From Candidatus Ignatzschineria merdigallinarum (GTDB lineage Bacteria; Pseudomonadota; Gammaproteobacteria; Cardiobacteriales; Wohlfahrtiimonadaceae): a DNA stretch of 34,628 bases. Below the pieces are notes generated by a model. That model searched no databases. It saw only the letters and a list, made by a program, of their open reading frames with translations, and was not told the DNA's origin. Positions within the stretch are counted from its first letter, which is position 1, and each line of letters starts with the position of its first letter. Of the stretch, positions 1,595-3,976 are shown piece after piece. The stretch spans positions 1 to 34,628 of the forward strand of contig DXHP01000038.1 in NCBI GenBank assembly GCA_019113305.1, read 5' to 3'. A program made the translations under genes and the position numbers.

Positions 1595-2362
1595 TTAAGA
1601 GTGGGTCTGCTTAGCAATCCATGCTTGTGCTTTTTGTAGATCTTCAGCGGTATCAATTCCTGGTGGAGGCGTTTCTGTAGAGATCGCAACGGCAATTTTA
1701 CGATTATTTGCTAAAGCTCTTAATTGCTCTAATTTTTCCATCTCTTCTAATGGTGAAGGGGTTAAATGAGGATATTCATTTAAGAAAGCTGCTCGATAAG
1801 CATAGAGACCTATATGGCGAAGATATGGAGATTGCCCACTGATTTTTCCGGATAGCTTCATTTCACCGCGTTGATAAGGGATCGCTGCTCTTGAAAAGTA
1901 AAGAGCCTCATCAGATTCGTTGAGAACAACCTTAACGGCATTTGGATCATGAACTTCTTCCCAGTCTTGTATGGGGGTTGCGAGTGTACTCATTGAAACC
2001 GCTTTATTTTCATGAAGTGCTGTGACTACTTTATCGATAAATGACAGTGGTAGGAAAGGTTCATCCCCTTGCCAGTTAACGATAATTTCATGATCAGAAA
2101 ATTGTAGTTTTTGTGATACTTCGCTGAGACGATCAGTACCTGTTTCATGAGAGTCCAAAGTCATAATGACATCAGCGCCAAGGGCTGTAAGATGGTCAAA
2201 AATTTGCACATCATCTGTGGCGACGAGGACTTTTTGGGCGGTGCTCTTCATGGCTGCACGCCAGCTCCATTCGATAAGCGGTTTTCCATGGAGTTCGCGT
2301 AACATTTTGTTAGGGAGTCGTGTTGACTTCAGTCGTGCAGGTATAATGATGTTGTAGTTCAT
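1595..2362 (-). CDS. kdsB: CMP-KDO synthetase (3-deoxy-manno-octulosonate cytidylyltransferase)
   Basis: A 255-residue enzyme that activates KDO with CTP for lipopolysaccharide inner-core synthesis, in the cytoplasm. The N-terminal IIPARLKSTRLPNKML (residues 5-20) is the nucleotide-binding signature of the family. QGDEPFLP (about 99-106) holds the metal-binding Asp, and the HIGLYAYR stretch lies near the substrate site. Length matches E. coli KdsB (248). It lies 95 bases upstream of psd on the same strand, so the two envelope-lipid genes may share a message. Its presence shows a KDO-containing LPS and so a Gram-negative host. Confidence 0.96.
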   Translation of the reverse strand: MNYNIIIPARLKSTRLPNKMLRELHGKPLIEWSWRAAMKSTAQKVLVATDDVQIFDHLTALGADVIMTLDSHETGTDRLSEVSQKLQFSDHEIIVNWQGDEPFLPLSFIDKVVTALHENKAVSMSTLATPIQDWEEVHDPNAVKVVLNESDEALYFSRAAIPYQRGEMKLSGKISGQSPYLRHIGLYAYRAAFLNEYPHLTPSPLEEMEKLEQLRALANNRKIAVAISTETPPPGIDTAEDLQKAQAWIAKQTHS

Positions 2363-3166
2363 GCCATGCCTTAATTAATTGATGGATGAGAAAAGGAGCG
2401 TAATTGGAAATTATAGCAATAAGTCTTTCTTTCAGCGACGATAAAAAAATGTGAATACTTTTTTGCTGTTCTATTGTTGATCAATATGCCGCATCTATTT
2501 TGAAATAATTAAAAAACAGATTATCTCATTTACATTTTTTTTCAAAAATAGCGCTGAAATTTGCATGAAAAATGTGACAAAAAAAGCCATTATTCTACTT
2601 GACTTATTCACAACGCCTGAAATCTTCGATGGTTGCCTACTTTCATTTTAAAGTTGTTGTTGTGAGATTGTGATTCCTGAAAACGCTTGATATTACTAGC
2701 TTTAAAGGTTGAGTAATTATTGATCAATTTCTCATAATTGGCATATCCATGCCCTTAAAGCTCTTTTTTATGAGGTTATCCTCAAGGTTATCCACAAGAT
2801 CTGTGGGTATCTATTAATAAATAATATTTCTATTAAATGTAAATTTAAATATTAATTTTTTGATAATTTTTCAATGAAAGGCATATTTTTTATTCAGTTT
2901 TAAATTTTTGAATTACGAAAATAAATTTGTGGTTAAATATTATTACAATGACTTATCTTGTGACTCTTAATCAAAATTGCTTTACGGTAATGGCTGCTGG
3001 AGGGAAAGATCAATTTTGTAGGTTGATAGTGAGTTGCGAAGTACCTATTTCGTGATGATGTTTTTTGTCATTTTTTTAATGATCTTGGGTATGATAAGAG
3101 CGATTGATGGAAGATTGATAATACTCTCATCGAAAAGGTCTAAAGTTAATGAAAGGAAAATGCAGT
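2363..3166. other. Gene-free AT-rich region with DnaA-box-like sites
   Basis: No convincing gene is present across about 800 bases between divergent kdsB and mazG. Two exact DnaA boxes of form TTATNCACA lie on the plus strand at 2604-2612 and 2788-2796. One-mismatch boxes lie at 2450-2458 (minus), 2776-2784 (plus) and 2928-2936 (minus), and a two-mismatch site at 2802-2810 (minus). A very AT-rich stretch (2811-2945) follows the densest group. GATC occurs at 2479, 2722, 2798, 3008 and 3081, the first two inside the palindrome TTGATCAA. The parts resemble a replication origin, but see the finding for contrary strand-composition evidence. Confidence 0.45.
2410..2415 (-). promoter_or_regulatory. 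Candidate -10 box for kdsB
   Basis: The minus strand reads TTGCTATAATTTCC, giving a consensus TATAAT 48 bases before the kdsB start. I see no convincing -35 hexamer at 16-18 bp, so this rests on the -10 alone. Confidence 0.35.
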
Positions 3167-3976
3167 ATGGGAACGAATTCTTTGCAAGAGTTATTGGCGG
3201 TCATCAAAAAGCTACGTTCAGAGAATGGATGTCCTTGGGATCGTGCACAGACGCATGAATCTTTGATTCCTTTTTTAGAAGAAGAGGGTGCAGAAGTTAT
3301 CGATGCTATTTATGAGCAAGATGATATGCACTTAAAGGAGGAGTTAGCTGATCTATTGTTGCAGATTTTATTGCATAGTGAGATTGCTTCTGAACGCGGA
3401 GCTTTTAATTTTATTGATGTGATGCAATCTGTACAGGAGAAAATGGTTAGAAGACATCCTCATGTTTTCTCTAATAAAAAATATGTCTCTATTGCAGAGC
3501 AGAAAGTGGATTGGGTTCGAATTAAGCAGCAGGAACGTAAAGCGAAGGGATTGCCGGAGCAACAATCACTGTTAGCAGGGATTCCTTTTTCCTTACCGGC
3601 TCTAAAGCAAGCGGATATTTTACAAAATAGAGCGGCAACGGTCGGGTTTGATTGGGACGATATTAAGGATGTATGGGCCAAAGTTGAGGAGGAGAAGCAA
3701 GAGCTTGCAGCCGCGATGCTTGAAGGATCCTCCTTAGAAATTCAAGGAGAATTAGGGGATCTTCTGTTTTCATTGGTGAATTTATCTCGTTTCTTAGAAT
3801 TGGATGCGACAGAAGCACTAAATCTCACTAATCAAAAATTTAGACGGCGTTTTCAATATATTGAAGAACATGCGCCGGAACCATTGTCAGAATTAAGTCT
3901 TGAAGTATTAGATCAGTATTGGAATTTAGCGAAAGAGATGGAAAACGTCTTAGAAAAGGATGCAGAAAATGTTTGA
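3167..3976 (+). CDS. mazG: Nucleoside triphosphate pyrophosphohydrolase MazG
   Basis: Two tandem MazG domains, the classic full-length form (269 residues; E. coli 263). The enzyme cuts NTPs to NMP and pyrophosphate in the cytoplasm and is thought to clean the nucleotide pool or lower ppGpp. Each domain shows the Mg-binding pattern: EEEGAEVIDAIYE with EELADLLLQ in the first, EEEKQELAAAM with GELGDLLFSL in the second. GCPWDRAQTHESL is also typical. I chose ATG 3167 because AAAGGA lies about 10 bases upstream; an in-frame ATG at 3149 would add six residues. The end overlaps the start of xseA, so translation is probably coupled. Confidence 0.94.
   Translation: MGTNSLQELLAVIKKLRSENGCPWDRAQTHESLIPFLEEEGAEVIDAIYEQDDMHLKEELADLLLQILLHSEIASERGAFNFIDVMQSVQEKMVRRHPHVFSNKKYVSIAEQKVDWVRIKQQERKAKGLPEQQSLLAGIPFSLPALKQADILQNRAATVGFDWDDIKDVWAKVEEEKQELAAAMLEGSSLEIQGELGDLLFSLVNLSRFLELDATEALNLTNQKFRRRFQYIEEHAPEPLSELSLEVLDQYWNLAKEMENVLEKDAENV

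Follow-up and report, generated by a model that had tools for sequence, protein, structure and literature searches.

Between the divergent genes kdsB and mazG of Candidatus Ignatzschineria merdigallinarum lies a gene-free gap of 786 bp (positions 2363 to 3148), in agreement with the roughly 800 bases given by an earlier, sequence-only reading. The window analyzed here, a stretch of 34,628 nucleotides, is contig 180 of a 233-contig draft genome (G000). The earlier reading had noticed a cluster of DnaA boxes in the gap, and this raises the question of what such a cluster does between these two genes: it had proposed a displaced origin of replication, a DnaA sink like datA, or a DnaA-regulated promoter. 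Our findings point, with a probability of about 0.78, to a DARS2-type element of a widespread layout, predicted from its sequence features to reactivate DnaA.

The three-box core and its conservation beside kdsB

GC content is 29% in the gap and 38.8% in the window as a whole, whose lowest-GC 100-mers begin at 2808 to 2813; the very AT-rich tract described earlier is present beside box I (Table 1). Five GATC sites are also present, as claimed, but their density in the 786 bp is little above that of the window (5.1 per kb). Exact matches to TTWTNCACA occur at 2604-2612 and 2788-2796; measured against TTATCCACA, the box at 2788 has no mismatch and those at 2604, 2776, and 2928 have one each. The three box-like sites reported to be packed into 2776-2810 were all recovered. 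The claim of a cluster held for the arrangement of the boxes but not for their number, which is at chance level in the window (4 observed, 4.97 expected). The core reads III-3 bp-II-5 bp-inverted I with a total of three mismatches, and in 2000 simulated gaps that kept the neighbor-base frequencies of the real one, this geometry was never reached at three or fewer mismatches (the best, seen once, had four); the arrangement was therefore judged nonrandom.

Table 1. Features of the kdsB-mazG gap and its flanking genes (window coordinates; Fis consensus taken from PMC8682772)
Feature	Position	Strand	Remarks
kdsB	1595..2362	-	TIGR00466; accompanies the element in the loci examined
Conserved block CTTGACTTATTCACAA with outlying DnaA box at 2604-2612	2598..2613	+	Box exact in 6/9 and with one mismatch in 3/9 genus gaps
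IHF-like site (AAAACGCTTGATA)	2680..2692	+	Consensus match, 1 mismatch to YAAnnnnTTGATW; 83 bp from box III
Fis consensus GnnYAnnnnnTRnnC (GAGTAATTATTGATC)	2711..2725	.	Consensus match, exact; 50 bp from box III
DnaA box III (TTATCCTCA)	2776..2784	+	1 mismatch to TTWTNCACA
DnaA box II (TTATCCACA)	2788..2796	+	Exact; 3 bp from box III
DnaA box I (ATACCCACA)	2802..2810	-	2 mismatches; inverted; 5 bp from box II
AT-rich tract	2811..2936	.	Beside box I; 86.5% AT; sequence without conservation
mazG	3149..3976	+	TIGR00444; neighbor in 11 gaps of genera g1 and g4

Within the genus, few parts of the gap are as well conserved as the CTTGACTTATTCACAA block. It resembles a -35 element and was considered as one, but by eye no -10 element is conserved alongside it. 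No terminator-like site was found in the region, four weak Rfam matches all fell far below gathering scores, and a search of a plasmid collection gave zero matches. Short shared stretches in L039, L040, L042, and L045 were dropped as chance matches within genes, judged by eye.

The gap was also looked for in relatives, a check that the earlier reading had proposed. Among named genomes, KdsB finds its nearest counterparts in Ignatzschineria species (72 to 74% identity for the first three matches listed), which places the source of the window within or very near Ignatzschineria, a genus of the order Cardiobacteriales (class Gammaproteobacteria). Eleven kdsB-mazG gaps, nine from the genus and two near-identical ones from genus g4, were aligned; they share conserved blocks, and in each of the 11 the distance from box III to an exact Fis consensus is 50 bp. 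TGTGGGTAT at box I is invariant across the nine genus gaps, and box III has three mismatches in L052 (g4). Among 13 kdsB loci from named records, 12 carry the core with an exact Fis consensus at 49 to 50 bp; the exception is L058, where the element is absent from the 900 bp examined. With six of these 13 taken as duplicates of gaps already counted, 18 distinct loci from Ignatzschineria, Wohlfahrtiimonas, and their kin remain; 17 of them carry the element upstream of kdsB, each with the exact Fis consensus at 49 to 50 bp. The distance from core to kdsB start ranges from 286 to 458 bp across loci and is 413 bp in the window. Three g2 loci, with cores identical to those in named Wohlfahrtiimonas records, have a KDPG aldolase gene in place of mazG as the right neighbor; the element stays with kdsB while the opposite side changes between the g2 and the g1 and g4 loci.

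The IHF consensus, at one mismatch or fewer, occurs 83 to 85 bp from box III in 12 of the 17 element-bearing kdsB loci. Four Wohlfahrtiimonas loci have an exact match; the site is poor (two or three mismatches) in G004, G007, L057, and L086, and no site at one mismatch or fewer was found in G002. Of the proteins expected to act together here, DnaA was found in all 13 genomes of the order, a Fis orthologue in all 13 genomes tested (46% identity in G000), and IhfA above the cutoff in 11 of 13, G000 among them. Hda did not exceed its curated cutoff in any of the 13 genomes of the order, G000 included, a cutoff that 1 of 14 control genomes passed, and the best matches were DnaA itself.

The geometry is specific in these relatives. 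Across 18 genomes, the pattern at three or fewer mismatches gave 68 matches, some of them a single site counted on both strands. Read backwards, the pattern gave 1; a version with 4- and 6-bp gaps gave 6 (3 when that was read backwards), and one with box I not inverted gave 3. At this threshold, neither G000 nor G004 has a match anywhere in its assembly other than the kdsB-mazG gap. Sampled stretches of G002 and G004 were cut into 582 tiles of 900 bp (11 unscorable because of N); two reached three mismatches and none fewer, and both were the kdsB-mazG gap. A second, weaker core in the window's own genome (C54, L256) has two mismatches in box I and neither Fis nor IHF sites. Other geometry sites among the 30 loci listed are without an exact Fis consensus at 48 to 52 bp and are DARS1-like. 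Cores of DARS geometry beside genes with BipA (L192 and L196), LysE (L171 and L175), and MraW (L182) domains are candidates of this DARS1-like kind, and no exact Fis site was found at 48 to 52 bp in any of these five.

Relationship to DARS1, DARS2, and other DnaA-binding loci

The DARS sites of Escherichia coli exchange ADP for ATP on DnaA; by function, a DARS prefers ADP-DnaA and promotes the loss of its ADP. In E. coli K-12, the arrangement III-3-II-5-inverted I is found both in DARS2, which lies between rppH and mutH, and in DARS1, which lies between bioD and uvrB; mismatches to the geometry number two in DARS1, three in DARS2, six in the datA region, and eight in the oriC region. This accords with PMC5742627, which describes DARS as boxes I to III with a spacing common to DARS1 and DARS2 and with box I opposite to II and III. 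By eye, the homology arms for DARS2 deletion given in PMC4585315 flank the stretch read here as DARS2, and its two IHF-like sites lie 3 bp apart, matching the spacing of IBS1 and IBS2 given for DARS2 in PMC4245941.

The window shares with both E. coli sites the three boxes, the opposite box I, and the common spacing, and it shares with DARS2 an intergenic location between origin and terminus (as placed in three relatives) and Fis and IHF sites, here consensus matches, on the box III side. DARS1 has the same core without a Fis or IHF match at window-type distances. The order of the flanking sites differs from that of DARS2, in which IHF-like sites lie 58 and 74 bp and a Fis consensus 110 bp from the core (core-IHF-Fis), whereas the window has core-Fis(50)-IHF(83). 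Because of this order, and because its neighbors are kdsB and mazG rather than rppH and mutH, we do not class the window element as an orthologue of E. coli DARS2. The same two differences count against a DARS2-type reading in general, as do the two mismatches in box I and the one in the IHF site, the poor or missing IHF sites of five related loci, the absence of the element at L058, and the strict cores elsewhere that have no Fis or IHF site. That reading is nevertheless the one we prefer because of the combined evidence of the geometry of DARS1 and DARS2, the Fis consensus 50 bp and the IHF-like site 83 bp outward of box III, the conservation in 17 of 18 loci, and a mid-to-late replichore position in three relatives. 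The broader suggestion that the gap is a DnaA-binding control region is well supported, as a prediction from sequence.

By analogy with E. coli, ADP-DnaA would assemble on boxes I to III, with the molecules on boxes I and II in head-to-head contact, while Fis and IHF would give the flanking DNA its shape and activate the complex. Release of ADP would follow, and apo-DnaA would depart and take up ATP for the next initiation, at an origin located elsewhere.

Chromosomal position and alternative explanations

As the sequence-only reading had noted, there is no skew switch within the window, where 2-kb skew is positive nearly throughout (1 of 18 bins negative). A wider GC-skew check, which that reading had called for, was run by sampling 6- to 20-kb stretches of three relatives, the single-contig congeners G004 and G002 and the genome G011 of the sister genus g4, the window's own genome being a 233-contig draft. 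In G004 (3.07 Mb), the gap lies at 0.457 Mb; the samples have positive skew from 2.53 Mb across 0 to 1.08 Mb, and those between 1.23 and 2.51 Mb have negative skew. In G002 (2.56 Mb), the gap lies at 1.554 Mb; samples between 1.15 and 2.27 Mb are negative, those from 2.35 Mb across 0 to 1.03 Mb are positive, and the interval from 2.29 to 2.35 Mb is noisy. In G011, the gap lies near 1.085 Mb, with positive skew from 0.097 to 1.406 Mb and negative skew at the contig start and from 1.55 Mb. The sign in 2-kb bins varies, also beside the gap and at the G004 switch, and the argument rests on the 6- to 20-kb samples. Measured from interval midpoints, the gap falls at about 0.59, 0.63, and 0.72 of the arm from origin to terminus in the three relatives. 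Judged by skew sign, the replication fork passes IHF, Fis, and then boxes III, II, and I in the same orientation in all three.

The proposal that the gap is the chromosomal oriC of the lineage, displaced from dnaA, draws on the DnaA boxes, the AT-rich tract, and the divergent genes, all of which are present. We rejected it, since in G004, G002, and G011 the samples flanking the gap agree in skew sign and the switch lies elsewhere. The AT-rich tract, moreover, is not conserved, and the G004 switch (2,520.8 to 2,526.5 kb) carries 10 exact TTATCCACA boxes in 5.7 kb, a dense cluster that is likely to be the true origin. That the kdsB-mazG gap serves as the origin is very unlikely, and we give the idea almost no credence. 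The densest box group at the G004 switch (L294, 2799-2980; G004:C1 about 2,520,800-2,520,980) lies between genes with Ham1 and branched-chain-transporter domains, and dnaA is at the start of the G004 record, about 0.55 Mb from the skew-switch cluster.

The suggestion of a sink like datA comes nearer than that of an origin. Such a site would bind DnaA, perhaps with IHF, and lower the amount of active DnaA, either by titration or by hydrolysis of DnaA-ATP. Like datA, which as described in PMC5742627 has an IHF site, the window has a DnaA-box cluster with an IHF-like site outside oriC; titration would follow from binding alone, and PMC12371093 credits DARS1, DARS2, and datA jointly with much of the titration power of the chromosome. 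The three-box geometry, however, is absent from the E. coli datA region, whose best fit has six mismatches where DARS1 and DARS2 have two and three, and in the relatives the enrichment is specific to an inverted box I at 5 bp (68 matches against 3 with box I turned). datA is characterized by one IHF site alongside its boxes 2, 3, and 7 and by hydrolysis of ATP; it needs IHF, while Fis is unnamed as a part of it in the passages on datA in PMC5742627 and PMC8682772. A datA-like role is unlikely. So, to a slightly greater degree, is a promoter of kdsB or mazG regulated by DnaA, Fis, and IHF, which would link lipopolysaccharide or nucleotide metabolism to replication. The constant company of kdsB at 17 of 18 loci speaks for such a promoter, as does the regulation of genes by DnaA through double boxes spaced 2 to 3 bp apart (PMC11317965); the double boxes of purH, polA, and nrdA resemble the window in having two direct boxes 3 bp apart, although the published double box is defined without an inverted third box. 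The core, on the other hand, is hundreds of base pairs from the kdsB start (286 to 458 bp), promoter-like hits show no clear excess (7, against 4.8 in shuffles; standard deviation, 2.3), and the same core-Fis layout adjoins many unrelated genes elsewhere, with PriA, SelO, MlaA, and other domains.

The layout among gammaproteobacteria

A strict core pattern, free of Fis and IHF letters, was run on 369 gammaproteobacterial genomes and gave 47 matches in 40 of them, against 0 for the reversed control. All 47 cores were read (31 in 30 loci, 13 fetched later, and 3 others); the window's genome contributes two of them, the window site and one other, and the set, spread over 34 genera, is not made up of independent cases. 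A Fis consensus with at most one mismatch lies 49 to 52 bp from 38 of the 47 cores (25 exact), and an IHF consensus with at most one mismatch lies 83 to 87 bp from 31 (13 exact), on the same strand in 31 of 31. Both sites accompany 30 cores, while 9 are without Fis and 16 without IHF. In 82 control windows of the same widths, Fis averaged 2.30 (maximum, 7) and IHF 0.88 (maximum, 4). The distances were first noticed in 31 of the 47 cores; among the 13 fetched after they had been set, 11 have the Fis site and 10 the IHF site. A composite search restricted to Fis at 49 or 50 bp found 5 of the 369 genomes, the window's own included, a figure too low for the class because the commonest Fis distance is 51 bp. 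The logo of the Fis-position site resembles strong Fis sites.

Neighbors of the cores examined are diverse and include genes with PriA, uracil-DNA glycosylase, shikimate dehydrogenase, MOSC, SelO, MlaA, and adenylosuccinate synthetase domains. One genome record, G279:C1, holds three elements of the class type, at 0.013, 3.234, and 4.404 Mb; none lies within 3.746 to 4.020 Mb, where sampled skew turns positive, and the sample at 4.86 Mb is opposite in sign.

DARS as a kind of locus is already known. DARS2 has been worked out for E. coli, and its conservation has been shown in relatives up to Vibrio and Shewanella (PMC8682772 compares seven with E. coli); PMC10380432 reports DARS-like sequences in many proteobacteria. 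No title or abstract in the literature searched describes the core-Fis-IHF layout, although Figure S10A of PMC4245941, on conservation, may show it.

The observations suggest, at somewhat better than even odds, that a fixed-register DnaA-reactivating element (I-5-II-3-III, about 51 bp, Fis, about 20 bp, and an oriented IHF site) is common to many gammaproteobacteria, with the kdsB-mazG gap as one member and E. coli DARS2 as a rearranged version. If this is so, the fixed-register rule would predict DARS2-type sites from sequence alone in unstudied bacteria, and the core geometry together with the phased Fis and IHF rule, which 30 of the 47 cores follow, would locate the DnaA-recharging switch in many of them. 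The layout also makes two questions testable: whether the gating of DnaA recharging by Fis and IHF is an ancestral trait, and whether the helical phasing of these two proteins and DnaA relative to one another is important.
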